From Acetomicrobium thermoterrenum DSM 13490 (GTDB taxonomy: Bacteria; Synergistota; Synergistia; Synergistales; Acetomicrobiaceae), in contig NZ_FNPD01000008.1 in assembly GCF_900107215.1 (NCBI RefSeq), forward strand, positions 1-64,000: a stretch of DNA of 64,000 bases, read 5' to 3'. The notes under the pieces are model-generated. The model saw nothing but the letters and a program-made list of their open reading frames with translations. It searched no databases and was not told where the DNA came from. How positions within the stretch are numbered: position 1 is the stretch's first letter; each line of letters begins with the position of its first letter. Below, piece by piece: positions 6,005 through 12,235 of the stretch. The position numbers and the translations under genes were made by a program.

Positions 6005-7678
6005 TCAAGCTTCAAGGATCATTTCGTCCATCCCGCCGCCCGGAGGAATCATCGGGAAGACCTTCTCCTTCGTAGGAACGATGCATTCCACCAATGTAGG
6101 CCCATCTTGACTTAATGCCATTTGAAGTGTAGAGCTAATCTCATGAGAACGTTCAATTCGATAACCCTTCACTCCAAACCCGCTTGCTATTTCCACCAAA
6201 GAGCGCGACGGCGCTTCATTGGTGGCCGAATACCTTTCGCTCCAGAACAGCTCTTGCCACTGCCTTACCATGCCAAGGCTGGAATTGTTTATGACAATCA
6301 GCTTGACGGGCAAATTATATCTGACGCAAGTCTCGAGCTCCTGTACGTTCATCAAAAAACTTCCGTCACCGGAAATACAAAGGACGGGTCGGTCTAAAAG
6401 AGCAAAGGCCGCCCCAATTGCAGCAGGAAGGCCGTATCCCATAGTCCCGAGACCTCCGGAAGACAAAAAGGTTCCGGGAAACTTTACTTGCCAGTGAAGG
6501 GCAGCCCACATCTGGTTTTGTCCCACTTCAGTCGAGACTATTTGTTGAGGCTCGACCATTTTTCTAAGAGACATCAAAAGGGCGCGAGGAGTTATGTAAG
6601 AGTTGTCATCGTCGCATACTTCCTCCTGTTTAAATTTCTCTATGCCTTGGAGCCAGGTGGAACGGTCGCGAGCTTTAATTTCCCCATGCAAACCCGATAT
6701 AATCTTTCCTGCATCGCCTATCAGAAAGTGGGACGCTCTTATGTTCTTGTTGATTTCCGCAGGATCGACATCGATATGTATTATCTTTGCATTCGGAGCA
6801 AAGCAGGTCGCTCTACCCGTCGTCCTGTCGGAAAAACGTGTTCCTACCCCAATGACCAGATCAGCTTCCAGGATCGCCCTATTGGCCGCAGGGCGCCCGT
6901 GCATTCCGGCCATACCTAAAGACAAAAAATTTCCTTCTGGATAGGCGCCTTTGCCCATGAGAGTGGTAGCCACAGGCATCCTGAATTCGTCGATAAAACT
7001 GCTAAATGCTGCGCTTGCTCGAGAGTGTATCACCCCTCCCCCAAGAAGCAACAAGGGCCGTTCGGCTTTATTAATGGCCTCTACCACATCGCCCCACATC
7101 GTAAGATCCTCGTTCCTTTCGGGATGATATCCCGGAAATTCTAACTTGGGAGGATAGACAAACTCTCCTTCCTCGTTTTGAACGTCCACGGGCAAAACTA
7201 TCAAAACGGGACCCGGTCTTCCTGTTGTGGCGATGTAAAAGGCCCCACGCACCGCCTTTGGAATTTCAGAAGCACTTTTTACCAAAAAGCTGTGCTTCAC
7301 CATTGACATGGAACAGCCAAAGATATCGGCCTCCTGAAATGCATCAGTTCCCATCACCTTCGTAGCTACCTGGCCGGCGATCACGACCACAGGAATGGAA
7401 TCCATATAGGCCGAAGCCAAGGGAGTCACTATATTGGTAGCACCGGGTCCCGACGTAACGAAACAGACGCCCGGTTTTCCCCTTACCCTCGCATACCCGT
7501 CGGCCGCATGCCCTACCGCTTGTTCATGGCGCATCAATACGTGTCTTATCTTTGAATCGTAAAGGGCATCATAAAGCGGAATTACTGTCCCTCCAGGGTA
7601 TCCGAACACCGTCTCCACGGCCTCTTCTTCCAAGGCCTTAATTATCATCTGTGCCCCTGTCAAACGCATTTTACTCAC
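6005..7678 (-). CDS. ilvB: Acetolactate synthase, large (catalytic) subunit
   Basis: This 557-residue ThDP enzyme condenses two pyruvates, or pyruvate plus 2-oxobutyrate, in valine/leucine/isoleucine synthesis. The catalytic Glu lies in MRHEQAVGHAADGYARV near residue 50, followed by TSGPGATN. The ThDP-binding GDGSFLMN...NNSS motif is near residue 430. It is the last gene of the ilv-leu operon, and its GTG start overlaps the leuB stop (GTGA). An ATG nine bases in (7669) is better spaced from the aaagga site and is an alternative start. Its regulatory subunit is encoded at the operon's other end. Confidence 0.93.
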   Translation of the reverse strand: MSKMRLTGAQMIIKALEEEAVETVFGYPGGTVIPLYDALYDSKIRHVLMRHEQAVGHAADGYARVRGKPGVCFVTSGPGATNIVTPLASAYMDSIPVVVIAGQVATKVMGTDAFQEADIFGCSMSMVKHSFLVKSASEIPKAVRGAFYIATTGRPGPVLIVLPVDVQNEEGEFVYPPKLEFPGYHPERNEDLTMWGDVVEAINKAERPLLLLGGGVIHSRASAAFSSFIDEFRMPVATTLMGKGAYPEGNFLSLGMAGMHGRPAANRAILEADLVIGVGTRFSDRTTGRATCFAPNAKIIHIDVDPAEINKNIRASHFLIGDAGKIISGLHGEIKARDRSTWLQGIEKFKQEEVCDDDNSYITPRALLMSLRKMVEPQQIVSTEVGQNQMWAALHWQVKFPGTFLSSGGLGTMGYGLPAAIGAAFALLDRPVLCISGDGSFLMNVQELETCVRYNLPVKLIVINNSSLGMVRQWQELFWSERYSATNEAPSRSLVEIASGFGVKGYRIERSHEISSTLQMALSQDGPTLVECIVPTKEKVFPMIPPGGGMDEMILEA

Positions 7679-8823
7679 ATCCTTTGGATAATTGAGGCAA
7701 CACTGTCTCCGACCTCTGAAGTTGTCGCCTCGCCACCAAGCTCCATAGGATGTCTTTGCCGCGGAAAGGCCCTTAAATATTCCAAAACAGCATTTTTTAC
7801 GGCTTCGGACGCCTCAACTTGTGTAAGATGTTCAAGCATTAAACTTGCCGACAATATGGCAGCTAAGGGATTTGCCCTTCCTGTACCGGCTATATCGGGC
7901 GCAGAACCATGAACCGGCTCGAACATCGATAGGCCATCTCCTATGTTTGCGCTGGGTGACAAACCCAACCCGCCCGTAAGTCCCGCCAGAAGATCGCTTA
8001 CGATGTCGCCAAACAAATTTGGACATAAGATCACGCCATATCCCGAGGGATCTCTTGCAAGCTGATAACAGAGGGCATCTACATTGACCAGTTTTAGTGA
8101 TATCCCCTCTTTTGAGGTCTCCTCTTTCGCTATTTCTTCCCAAAGGCCGTACAGCTCTTTCACGGCGTTTGATTTCGTCGCTAGCACTATTTCGCTTGCC
8201 TTTCTGCGACGGGCCAAGTTGCAGGCATAGCGCGTAATGCGCCTAACGCCCATTTCCGTAGCCAAAGCCAACTGTGCAGCAAATTTCATGGAAGGATCAA
8301 CTTTTAGGGAAAGAGCTCCCTTTAACGTATATGAAGGTCTCTTCATATCCACCGTCGCCTCGATCTCTTCATTAGAAAGAAAGCCCAAACCTACGTAAAG
8401 GTCTTCAGTGTTTTCTCTGACCACAACTATATCCATGTCCTCTCCCCTCTTCAAAGGCGTAGGAACATTGGGATAGGTTGAGGCAGGCCTCAAATTAACG
8501 TATTGATCGAAATAAAACCTCGTCTTCAGCAATATTCCCCGCTCAAGGACACCCGGAGGAACCCTGGGATCTCCTATGGCTCCCTGCAGCAGCGCGCAGC
8601 ACTGCTGCATCTCTTCCAGCGCTTCGTCCGGCAAGATCTCTCCTGTATTCAAGTAGTGTTCGGCCCCGTAGGGAAATTCTCTCCACTCCACGGAAAAACC
8701 AAACGAACTTGCAGCAGTTTCAACGACCTTTCGCGCCTCAGTAATCACGTCTTTCCCTATGCCATCTCCCGGCAAAAGCCCAATACGATACGTCATTTTA
8801 GCATCATGAGTCATCTTCCCCAC
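7675..8823 (-). CDS. leuB: 3-isopropylmalate dehydrogenase
   Basis: The protein is about 380 residues of the isocitrate/isopropylmalate dehydrogenase family (GDGIGKDV at the start; substrate loop GVLERGILLKTRFYFDQYVNLRP; FGDIVSDLLAGLTGGLG metal-binding Asp region; FEPVHGSAPDIAGTGRANPLA). It oxidises and decarboxylates 3-isopropylmalate in leucine synthesis. The position next to leuA supports LeuB over isocitrate dehydrogenase. The start may be GTG at 8823 or ATG at 8814; a gaggag site lies just upstream. No leuCD is present in this window. Confidence 0.88.
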   Translation of the reverse strand: MGKMTHDAKMTYRIGLLPGDGIGKDVITEARKVVETAASSFGFSVEWREFPYGAEHYLNTGEILPDEALEEMQQCCALLQGAIGDPRVPPGVLERGILLKTRFYFDQYVNLRPASTYPNVPTPLKRGEDMDIVVVRENTEDLYVGLGFLSNEEIEATVDMKRPSYTLKGALSLKVDPSMKFAAQLALATEMGVRRITRYACNLARRRKASEIVLATKSNAVKELYGLWEEIAKEETSKEGISLKLVNVDALCYQLARDPSGYGVILCPNLFGDIVSDLLAGLTGGLGLSPSANIGDGLSMFEPVHGSAPDIAGTGRANPLAAILSASLMLEHLTQVEASEAVKNAVLEYLRAFPRQRHPMELGGEATTSEVGDSVASIIQRM

Positions 8824-8838
8824 TCCCTCTCCTCGACA

Positions 8839-10401
8839 TTACACCGTGCTCACATACTGCGGAAAGATGTTAATCCCTCTAGCCTCCGCAATTTGGACCA
8901 GTCGATTTACGGCGTTTAAATAGGCCTTTATGCTCGCCTCTATGACGTCGGTGCTCGCTCCTCTTCCTTGGGCCAACACGCCCTTCAATTTCACAACTAC
9001 CACCGCTTCTCCCACTGCATCGGAGCGCTCGCTGACTGCGGAAATCTTGTAGCTGACCAACTCCGGTTCGATGTTTATTATCCTTTTTATCGCCTTGTAA
9101 GCTGCATCAACAGGGCCGTTGCCTGTGGCGGCATCGCTCACAGTCCTTTCGCCGTCGGAAATCACCACGGTAGCAGATCCCCTGCCGCCCGCTCCCACAT
9201 TGACCATGAAATCCCTCAACTCAAAGGTCCTCTTCGTTGCGCCTCCAAGAATTTCGTCCACGACCAAAGCTTCAATATCGCCGTCGCTGACGATGCCCTT
9301 TTTATCGCATAAATCCTTGAATAACACGAAGGCCTTTGCCATCTCTTCTTCGTTTAAATGATATCCGAGGCCTTTTATCCTCTCCGAAAAGGCGTGTCTC
9401 CCGGAATGCTTTCCCAACACCAATTTAGTGTCGGGAGCTCCTACGTCCTGAGGTCTCATGATCTCGTATGTCCTCTTATCGCACAAGACACCGTGCTGGT
9501 GTATTCCTGCCTCATGAGAAAAGGCGTTATCTCCTACGACTGCTTTATTGGGAGGTATGACGAAACCAGTCAATCGCGACACAAGCCTGCTAGTAGGATA
9601 AAGGTGAGTGGTGTTTATGCCTGTCTCGGTTCCAAAGTACTCTTTTCTGGTACGCAGGGCCATGACAATTTCTTCCAGTGAAGCGTTGCCGGCGCGTTCG
9701 CCTATTCCGTTTATTGTGCACTCTACCTGTCTTGCTCCCGCCTTAACTGCCACCAGGGAATTTGCCACGGCCAAGCCCAAGTCATCATGACAGTGAACCG
9801 ACCATATTACATCTTCTCTACCTACGCCCTTCATCACCCTAGAAAAGAAATCTCCAAATTCTTCGGGTATGGCGTATCCCACGGTATCGGGCAAGTTTAA
9901 AGTGGTTGCCCCGCAATCTGCTGCGACCTTAAAGGCTTCTATCAGAAATTCGGGGTCGGACCTGCTGCCATCCTCGGCGGAAAATTCCACGTCGGCAACG
10001 AGGCTTTTGGCATAACCTACAGCGGAACGAATTTCTTCCAACACTTCTTCCCTCGTCATCTTGAGCTTATATTGCATATGGATATCGCTTGTGGCTATGA
10101 ACACGTGAATGCGCGGACGCTCTCCATATTTTACCGCCTCAAAGGCAGCCCTTATATCTTCTCTTCTTGTTCTAGACAATCCTGCTATGATGGGACCTTT
10201 AACCTTTTCAGCTATAAGTCGGACGGCCTCTGCGTCTCCCGGTGAAGCGGCAGGGAAACCGGCTTCTATGATATCTACGCCTAAGGCAGCCAATTGATAG
10301 GCAATGTGAAGCTTTTCCTGCGAATTTAAATTTATTCCCGGCGACTGCTCTCCATCCCTAAGCGTCGTATCGAATACTCTCACACGATCGTCACTCATCA
10401 T
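8839..10401 (-). CDS. leuA: 2-isopropylmalate synthase
   Basis: A 520-residue protein. The catalytic HMGL-like TIM barrel begins [16 protein letters not shown] and carries the metal ligands of [14 protein letters not shown]. The C-terminal LeuA dimer/allosteric domain is from about residue 380 ([21 protein letters not shown]...). It condenses acetyl-CoA with 2-oxoisovalerate. ATG at 10401 is chosen because aggag stands 7 bases upstream; longer upstream starts would overlap the end of ilvC. The C-terminal domain suggests leucine feedback inhibition, adding to transcript attenuation. Confidence 0.93.
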
Positions 10402-10417
10402 TCTACATCTCCTTTTT

Positions 10418-11428
10418 TTAATTTTCCGGAGCTTTTTTGGCATCGAGCCAGGGCATCATCTTTCTAAGTTCAAAGCCGACCCTTTCTATAAGGTGATTTT
10501 TCTCCCTCTGCTGCCAAGCTCTCATTTGAGGCCTGTTGCATTGATTTTCAAGTATCCAGTCTTTAGCAAAGCTGCCCTCTTGAATGTTTTTCAAAAGCTC
10601 CTTCATCGTCTCTCTGACTTTCGAGTCAATGACTTTCTTACCTGCTACCATGTCCCCATATTTGGCCGTATCGCTCACCGAATAGCGCATCCAAGACAGC
10701 CCGCCCTCATACATCATGTCCACTATCAGCTTAAGCTCGTTCAAACATTCGAAATAAGCAATTTCCGGCTGATATCCGGCCTCGACCAGGGTATCGAAAC
10801 CTGCTTTGACCAACTCCGTCACTCCACCGCAGAGGACAGCCTGTTCTCCAAATAGATCCGTTTCCGTCTCCTCGGCAAAAGTTGTCTCAATCAAACCTGC
10901 TCGTCCGCAACCTAAAGCACAGGCATAAGCTAAAGCCATCTCTCTGGCCGAACCCGACGCATTCTGATGAACTGCAAATAGCGCAGGAACGCCCTTTCCT
11001 TCCTGATAGGTTCTACGCAGCAGATGCCCAGGGCTTTTGGGAGCGACCATGAAGACGTCTACGGTGGAAGGGGGTATGATCTGATGAAAATGAATGGTAA
11101 AACCGTGGGCGAAAACCAGCGCTGCTCCATCTTTTAGGACAGGAGCCACTTGTTCTTCGTAGATTTTAGCCTGGATGTGATCGGGAACGAGAAAGACGAC
11201 CAGGTCGCTCATGGCCACCGCCTCTTTTACATCCCGCACCTCCAAGCCATCCTGGCGTGCCCTTTCTATAGAAGAACTCCCTTTGTGAAGACCAACCACT
11301 ACGCTCAGACCACTGTCCCGCAAGTTCTGCGCATGGGCATGGCCTTGACTTCCGTAACCCAATACTGCGACCTTTTTATTAGCCAAAACTTTTATGTCAG
11401 CATCTCCGTCATAATAAACCCTTGCCAT
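10418..11428 (-). CDS. ilvC: Ketol-acid reductoisomerase
   Basis: This 336-residue class I enzyme has the NADPH-binding motif [17 protein letters not shown] near residue 24, the loop [10 protein letters not shown] and the knotted C-terminal metal-binding domain ([27 protein letters not shown]...). It isomerises and reduces acetolactate or acetohydroxybutyrate. It lies between ilvN and leuA in the same operon. The start at 11428 follows a good aggaggaat site. Loop residues Ser-Ser-Ser suggest NADPH preference, as is usual. Confidence 0.95.
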
Positions 11429-11463: not shown

Positions 11464-11991
11464 TTATGCTAGTTTCAATTCATACTCTTCGCATCGGCCT
11501 GAAACTTTGTCTTCAAATCCTACGCGCTGCATTGCCACGGCTCCGCTTGAAGCTACTTCCAAAATCCCGAAAGGCCTCATGGCAGACAAGAAGGCTTCAA
11601 CCTTGCCCTTGTCTCCGGTGACCTCGAAGACCAAGGCATCTCCGCCCACATCTACAGCTTTTCCTCGAAAGGCTTCGGCCGTTTGAAGGACATGAGGCCT
11701 GATCTCCAATGGAGCCGAAACTTTGATCAACATGATCCAACGTTCCACATAGGGAGCCTGACTCAAATTTCTCACCTCCACTATCTCTATTAATTTATCC
11801 AGCTGCTTCACAATCTGGTCGACAACCCTTTCGTCGCCTTCTACAACCATGGTAAATCGAGAAAATCCCTCGATATGGCTATGACCCACGCTTAAGCTCT
11901 CCACGTTGTATCCTCTTCGTGCTATTAGGGCTGCTATGCGAGAAAGCACTCCGGGATTGTCCTCAGCTAATACTCCTATAACATATTTCAC
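11464..11991 (-). CDS. ilvN: Acetolactate synthase, small (regulatory) subunit
   Basis: The protein of about 175 residues contains an N-terminal ACT domain (VLAEDNPGVLSRIAALIARRGYN) and the ALS_ss C-terminal domain. It binds valine and confers feedback control on IlvB. GTG at 11991 is the start: aaggaggtgat stands just before it, whereas the in-frame ATG at 12009 lies upstream of that site. It is the first structural gene after the attenuator. The catalytic partner IlvB is encoded four genes later, an unusual separation of subunits. Confidence 0.92.
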   Translation of the reverse strand: MKYVIGVLAEDNPGVLSRIAALIARRGYNVESLSVGHSHIEGFSRFTMVVEGDERVVDQIVKQLDKLIEIVEVRNLSQAPYVERWIMLIKVSAPLEIRPHVLQTAEAFRGKAVDVGGDALVFEVTGDKGKVEAFLSAMRPFGILEVASSGAVAMQRVGFEDKVSGRCEEYELKLA

Positions 11992-12009: not shown

Positions 12010-12059
12010 AAAAAAATAAAAAGGTCGGGACCCCTGTAACGCTTACGGGTCCCGACCTT
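12010..12059 (-). terminator. Attenuator terminator of the ilv-leu operon
   Basis: On the minus strand, aaggtcgggaccc pairs with gggtcccgacctt across a short loop, followed by a U-rich tract (tttattttttt at 12020-12010), directly before the ilvN ribosome binding site. The leader segment cgggtccc (12104-12097) can pair with gggacccg of the terminator's first arm, providing an antiterminator. Together with the leader peptide upstream this is a complete transcription attenuator. Confidence 0.9.
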
Positions 12060-12082
12060 GGAAGCTAAGGGTAATAAGAGCC

Positions 12083-12169
12083 CTATGCTCCGGGAGGGGA
12101 CCCGCAGCTTATAATTATTAGAACTAGCACTAGGACCAATTCCATGCATACTACGCCTTGGTGTAACAT
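12083..12169 (-). CDS. ilvL: Branched-chain amino acid leader peptide (ilvL-type)
   Basis: A 28-residue open frame starts at ATG 12169 behind a strong aaggagggg site (8-base spacing) and ends at TAG 12085-12083. Its middle reads E-L-V-L-V-L-V-L-I-I-I-S, a run of Leu, Val and Ile codons exactly as in regulatory leader peptides. The control codons end just before the segment that competes with the terminator stem (12097-12104), so a ribosome stalled for lack of charged tRNA would favour antitermination. It lies 38 bases downstream of a consensus promoter. The symbol is by function; I see no sequence identity with enteric ilvL beyond composition. Confidence 0.9.
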   Translation of the reverse strand: MLHQGVVCMELVLVLVLIIISCGSPPGA

Positions 12170-12206
12170 CTGCGTTTCCCCTCCTTCTAGCGGTAAATTT
12201 CCGATC

Positions 12207-12235
12207 ATTCTAATTTGATCGCAGAGACATGTCAA
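12207..12235 (-). promoter_or_regulatory. Promoter of the ilv-leu operon
   Basis: On the minus strand, TTGACA (12235-12230) and TAGAAT (12212-12207) are separated by 17 bases. Transcription would begin near 12200, about 30 bases before the leader peptide ATG. No other good promoter is seen between mrp and ilvN. Confidence 0.8.

Follow-up and report, generated by a model that had tools for sequence, protein, structure and literature searches.

The branched-chain amino acid (BCAA) operon ilvNC-leuAB-ilvB lies on the minus strand of the window (the whole stretch of 64,000 nucleotides analysed here), and the short region preceding it raises a question: is this operon governed by a switch that a translating ribosome reads, by a T-box, or by a repressor at its promoter? 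A first-pass annotation, made from the letters alone, had placed there a complete attenuator with a promoter, a leader peptide and mutually exclusive hairpins, in a background that it took to be Synergistetes. This background was correctly recognized, as the host is an Acetomicrobium, of the phylum Synergistota, and all of the claimed elements are present where they had been placed or within one or two bases. The attenuator interpretation is likewise strengthened, since most of the phylum keeps the leader frame, the sensor run, the terminator, and the antiterminator that competes with it.

The probability that positions 12235-12010 form a ribosome-mediated transcription attenuator of ilvNC-leuAB-ilvB, belonging to a Synergistota-wide family that uses one RNA switch, is put at about 0.9. 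This reading draws on observed anatomy, conservation, covariation, matching of sensors to genes, and folds predicted for each ribosome position. A clean ilv attenuator alone is ordinary; the interest comes from the family that surrounds it.

Anatomy of the leader and its operon

The features of the locus are the following, with the basis of each assignment in brackets:

12207..12235, minus strand: sigma-70-type promoter, TTGACA-17-TAGAAT (consensus scan; conservation in L063-L065)
about 12178..12187, minus strand: leader Shine-Dalgarno, AAGGAGGGG / GAAGGAGGGG (sequence; fold)
12083..12169, minus strand: leader peptide open reading frame (ORF), 28 codons and TAG (translation; frame conserved in relatives)
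12110..12139, minus strand: sensor run, codons 11-20, L V L V L V L I I I (sequence)
12097..12103, minus strand: A1, leader arm GGGUCCC, antiterminator 5' strand (covariation; folding)
12087..12094, minus strand: A2, second antiterminator strand, CCCGGAGC (folding; relatives)
12058..12092, minus strand: hairpin region around the leader stop codon, within the antiterminator loop (fold; covarying equivalent in relatives)
12047..12057, minus strand: B, terminator 5' arm GGUCGGGACCC, partner of either A1 or C (folding)
12023..12033, minus strand: C, terminator 3' arm GGGUCCCGACC (folding; covariation in relatives)
12010..12022, minus strand: terminator U-tract (sequence)
11464..11991, minus strand: ilvN, acetolactate synthase small subunit (family match; start by inspection)
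10418..11428, minus strand: ilvC, ketol-acid reductoisomerase (family match)
8839..10443, minus strand: leuA, 2-isopropylmalate synthase-like (protein sequence recognized by eye)
7675..8823, minus strand: leuB-like isopropylmalate dehydrogenase (family match)
6005..7678, minus strand: ilvB, acetolactate synthase large subunit (family match)

Downstream of the leader, the operon runs in the order ilvN-ilvC-leuA-leuB-ilvB, while the gene upstream encodes an Mrp-type iron-sulfur carrier. The ilvN gene probably starts at GTG 11991, with AAGGAGG at 12006-12000; the listed ORF starts at ATG 12009. Its protein shares 99% identity with the counterpart in Acetomicrobium hydrogeniformans, and the genome comparison rates G015, evidently the A. 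hydrogeniformans genome, as the same species as the window's genome.

The promoter at 12235-12207 matches 11 of 12 consensus positions, a quality for which chance would supply about one site per 500 bp, and its TTGACA-17-TAGAAT is kept in three sister genomes (L063-L065). The strong ribosome site follows (AAGGAGGGG, at about 12186-12178), and is predicted, in naked RNA, to pair with the CCCCUCC of leader codons 24-26. The ORF at 12169-12083, translated as MLHQGVVCMELVLVLVLIIISCGSPPGA up to its stop, is the 28-codon leader that had been described. Its LVLVLVLIII is the only run of at least ten I/L/V codons in the six frames of the 64-kb window, and residue shuffles gave 0 I/L/V runs of such length.

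The terminator announced before ilvN is an intrinsic hairpin (GGTCGGGACCC/GGGTCCCGACC, then TTTTTATTTTTTT) of -26.3 kcal/mol, located between the leader ORF and the first structural gene, directly before ilvN, with arms at 12057-12047 and 12033-12023 and a U-tract reaching 12010. A simple terminator scanner, which allows loops of up to 8 nt, reported none at this locus, probably owing to this limit. The leader segment said to be complementary to the terminator's first arm corresponds to A1, at 12103-12097; its GGGUCCC spans leader codons 23-25 and recurs identically inside the terminator 3' arm (C). The 191-nt leader region folds far better than its shuffles (z -5.1), beating all 200 of them.

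Control could also be exerted at the promoter by a CodY-like repressor, leaving the leader a minor role. For Synergistetes, PMC9318921 (in which the words leader and attenuation are absent) predicts CodY-like proteins together with a CodY regulon to which ilvN belongs, and the best CodY-like site near the promoter (12267) has 2 mismatches to the Acetomicrobium consensus of that paper. Nevertheless, CodY control gives no reason for the conservation of the leader frame, of its sensor run, of the pairing arms, or of the terminator, and the two layers can coexist, as is reported for Staphylococcus (PMC5794164). A repressor acting with a nearly idle leader is, in our judgement, quite unlikely.

Ribosome position and the predicted switch

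From this anatomy, we infer stalling, termination, and an amino-acid response in cells, which would proceed as follows. When Leu, Val, and Ile are sufficient, the leading ribosome would pass the sensor run and sit on the last codons and stop of the leader, where it would cover A1 (and A2), so that B would pair with C and transcription would end at the U-tract. When Leu, Val, or Ile is scarce, the ribosome would stall within codons 11-20, leaving A1/A2 free to pair with B once B is made, and this pairing would let RNA polymerase read through into ilvN. In untranslated RNA, the leader ribosome site could pair with the CCCCUCC next to A1, and this would favour termination by default.

Folding as a function of ribosome position was computed with a 28-nt footprint masked, the leader ribosome site covered, and the RNA ending just past B; in the stalled states, this cover is assumed to come from a following ribosome or from steric hindrance. 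The mutually exclusive hairpins that had been claimed do emerge from these masked folds: with the A site of the stalled ribosome on any tested codon of the stretch Leu11-Ile19, P(A1:B1) is 1.00; it is 0.85 with Ile20 there, and 0.00 with Gly23, Ala28, or the stop codon. If the leader ribosome site is left free (masks one base off), most stalled states keep A1 trapped and lack the antiterminator; the antiterminator prediction thus depends on the assumption of a covered site. In naked RNA, the probability of A1:B is only 0.27, because the leader GGAGGGG pairs with the CCCCUCC beside A1. Once the RNA is full-length, the terminator is always the more stable fold at equilibrium (-45.0 kcal/mol, against -41.3 kcal/mol with the antiterminator, a gap of 3.7 kcal/mol), and the switch must, therefore, be kinetic and decided during transcription, which is also when classical attenuators make their choice.

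Folding of the ilvN leaders of relatives favours the antiterminator with a stalled ribosome in 63 cases out of 69. In 27 of the 69, A1:B1 is not fully blocked by a ribosome standing motionless on the stop codon; the distance from A1 to the stop is mostly 24-30 nt in these leaders, rather than 18, and the hidden A2 arm with the stop-codon hairpin, or a passing ribosome, would have to act. The exclusion of the terminator by the antiterminator, dependent on ribosome position, was found at the level of prediction and covariation.

Conservation and spread in Synergistota

The first-pass annotation had named conservation in related genomes as a check on its reading, and both the leader frame and the hairpins turn out to be conserved. 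The DNA upstream of ilvN was compared at 90 loci of Synergistota, that of the window among them, and 80 have a leader rich in BCAA codons; the other ten include two that are cut by contig ends, and the six sampled in the genus g16 are also among them. A script detected a terminator for 72 of the leaders, and in 58 of these the antiterminator duplex surpasses shuffles by over 2 s.d. In g16, a large genus of the family f5, the six sampled ilvN genes (L139-L144) follow a 147-aa ORF without a leader, and none of the genomes of this genus is among those listed with an attenuator-family match, an apparent loss of attenuators.

For covariation, the ilvN leader clades were aligned apart (a joint MAFFT alignment shifts one clade by 3 nt), and alignment counts were preferred to a 7-mer count, whose choice of B by complementarity makes it partly circular. 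Among 20 leaders that form a well-aligned subgroup, 5 pairs of the antiterminator and inner hairpin changed on both sides (0/500 shuffles). The inner hairpin around the leader stop codon also covaries in this subgroup, and S-to-L codon changes in the leader are matched by changes in B. In the other group, of 25 leaders, covariation is seen in the terminator pairs; the antiterminator pairs of this group did not exceed shuffles, probably because A2 / the second helix shifts register between clades.

The matched changes bear on another possible role of the leader peptide, namely that the switch senses something other than charged tRNA, for example through a CGSPPGA tail that arrests the ribosome. 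This C-terminal tail is strikingly conserved across the phylum, but its codons are those of the antiterminator strand itself, and where its residue changes, B changes in compensation (in L082, L088, and L091, S becomes L and GGGAC becomes GGAGC), so that base pairing explains its conservation. Peptide arrest was rejected on this ground. As the sensor run, moreover, varies with the gene, sensing of anything but charged tRNA appears highly improbable.

Another alternative is a T-box or other metabolite riboswitch upstream of ilvN, with the short ORF being incidental; the first-pass annotation had considered a T-box the usual expectation in this background. For the phylum and the genome this expectation is sound, with T-boxes in 133 of 185 Synergistota genomes and three in the window's genome, but none of the matches listed lies at ilvN. 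Searching the leader region against Rfam at E up to 10 returned only two chance snoRNA matches, and a scan of the ilvN upstream regions of 40 relatives with all of Rfam revealed no T-box. The T-box family (RF00230) was rejected for ilvN, having no covariance-model match at the locus, and so were the known Rfam leader families, having no curated-model match. The three T-boxes of the window's genome (L001-L003; G000 C1:23259, C2:59220, and C3:223688) precede other genes, namely thrC-thrB, an argG-like gene (argininosuccinate-synthase-like, by eye), and dapA-dapB. The sensor codons, furthermore, match the downstream gene class. A riboswitch at ilvN is hardly credible under these circumstances. 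T-boxes and leader-peptide attenuators coexist in one cell.

The covariance model R1 was built from ilv leaders, and detects 355 sites in 122 of 185 Synergistota genomes; 84 genomes have more than one family site, with up to 15-16 per genome (16 in G119). The window's ilv leader matches R1 with an E-value of 1.9e-17, to be taken as rough, like all covariance-model E-values, and obtained with the window's own sequence among the model-building ones. This ilv copy is the one convincing R1 site of the window's genome, and a pan-family model found no further family members in Acetomicrobium.

About 99 sites other than the ilvN ones were inspected together with their downstream genes. An in-frame leader is present at nearly all of them, in most cases accompanied by a ribosome site; the antiterminator/terminator module is constant, while the sensor codons vary with the downstream gene. 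Met runs precede metQ, metN, metX, and metY (19 sites), and Leu-rich runs precede leuA (12 sites); an IIII run is found before threonine dehydratase (ilvA), a VVVVV run before panB, and a TTTT run before homoserine dehydrogenase (hom). F/Y runs occur before an AMP-ligase resembling phenylacetate-CoA ligase and before sodium:solute symporters, and BCAA runs also before ilvC and ilvD. One leuA leader, a leuC leader, and a lysC leader are without a clear cognate run. By the mechanism proposed above, the same A/B/C module would operate elsewhere in the phylum behind MMM, LLL, IIII, VVVVV, TTTT, and FF/YYY runs, at genes of the matching pathways.

The fit of sensor to gene was measured on 49 sites with an assignable gene, taken from about 35 chosen genomes rather than from the full set of 355. 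Cognate residues make up a fraction of 0.30 of the sensor in these sites, against 0.11 after permutation (0/20,000), and 46 of them have a cognate run of at least 2. The cognate codons peak 4-7 codons before A1; a ribosome stalled at roughly this distance would keep clear of A1, if its footprint extends, as is usual, about 12 nt past the first base of the P-site codon. Over 99 family matches, 13 of the 14 antiterminator pairs changed on both sides, in an alignment (A5) that was fitted to the model, inflating counts somewhat. With shuffle and slide controls using this same alignment, there are 135 double-changed cells vs 43 in shuffles (0/500) and 86% paired cells vs at most 66% when slid, the best register by far.

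The multi-copy matches might, alternatively, be GC-rich terminators picked up by the model and not one family, and weak matches (20-30 bits) do occur in other phyla. Samples of 299, 198, and 198 genomes (about 695 in all), from the phyla of a Selenomonadales MAG, of Microbacterium, and of an Ignavibacteriales MAG, respectively, gave weak matches only with R1 or R3; those inspected, from the Selenomonadales and Microbacterium phyla, have no leader matching its gene. The in-frame leaders of the inspected family sites and the permutation result on sensor-gene fit also speak against chance terminators. Above roughly 32 bits, this explanation is already disfavoured, inspection having covered only some of the weakest among the 355 sites, and its overall likelihood is very low.

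On our reading, the sites form a modular family of ribosome-mediated attenuators that is specific to this lineage and operates alongside T-boxes. They likely constitute one homologous, T-box-like family, in which a constant cassette was copied before genes of amino-acid biosynthesis, transport, or breakdown and the sensor codons were re-evolved or swapped; the common origin of the copies is suggested by shared architecture, rather than by a tree.

Several individual sites are worth describing. Two identical ilv leader copies stand in tandem, 240 bp apart, before an ilv operon (L215, G119 C8:513169-515300), with a partial third copy after a run of N, and represent either tandem attenuators or an assembly artefact. 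Leader runs containing Cys, Met, Phe, and Tyr precede SsuC/TauC/SaoP-like ABC permeases (L294 and L305, in G092), perhaps as a cysteine- or sulfur-responsive family member. Ala-run leaders (AAAAM, AAAMAM) are found at L296 and L299 (G020, G022); the protein downstream of L296 has no Pfam or NCBIfam match, and the role of the L296/L299 downstream protein may be guessable from the leader codons. Aromatic or BCAA leaders also precede genes without a Pfam match (L286, L309, L311, L221, and L264), whose products, membrane-protein-like by eye, are candidates for unknown amino-acid transporters.

Comparison with known systems

No report of attenuators in Synergistota was found in the open-access literature, so that priority is uncertain. 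According to PMC2965389, leader-peptide systems were in 2010 known only in Proteobacteria and Actinobacteria, to which it added Firmicutes cases; PMC9413887 describes histidine attenuators in Firmicutes and, in the parts consulted, treats Synergistetes only for the HisR repressor. An attenuation survey by Lopatovskaya and colleagues is cited in PMC4833913. According to the same parts (PMC9413887; PMC2965389), the Firmicutes histidine attenuators resemble the Synergistota family in being ribosome-mediated and outside Proteobacteria and Actinobacteria, but they concern one amino acid in few species, and no cross-operon scaffold is mentioned there. The Corynebacterium ilvBNC leader, with its terminator, antiterminator, and anti-antiterminator, is alike in combining a BCAA leader peptide with a terminator and an antiterminator, but its 15-residue leader peptide lies one base from the transcription start, and the system is described for ilv in one genus (PMC11857589, PMC10272879).

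The Synergistota leader has no sequence match to E. coli ilvL (ilvGMEDA) or leuL (no Rfam leader family match). Those E. coli systems have leader peptides rich in the operon's own amino acids, exclusive hairpins, and the ribosome as sensor, and the Synergistota leader is like them in the composition of its peptide, in the proposed sensing by the ribosome, and in its mutually exclusive antiterminator and terminator. It differs from them in using one arm competition, A1 being a copy of the terminator 3' arm, and in the reuse of its RNA module at many operons. Classical attenuators are usually seen as solitary devices, arising repeatedly and sharing little sequence.

Synergistota are little-studied amino-acid-fermenting anaerobes, in which the leader codon run would predict regulons and the functions of unannotated genes and transporters. 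Hundreds of comparable natural switches would also make it possible to test how codon position, spacing, and RNA pairing set the amino-acid response. The closest parallel to such a family is the T-box, which likewise places a constant RNA switch, with a small changeable specificity part, before many amino-acid genes. In a T-box, a specifier codon serves to bind uncharged tRNA directly, whereas the sensor of the Synergistota family is a translated codon run; if the reading holds, this phylum-wide module, whose sensor codons can be exchanged, would amount to a counterpart of the T-box that works through translation.
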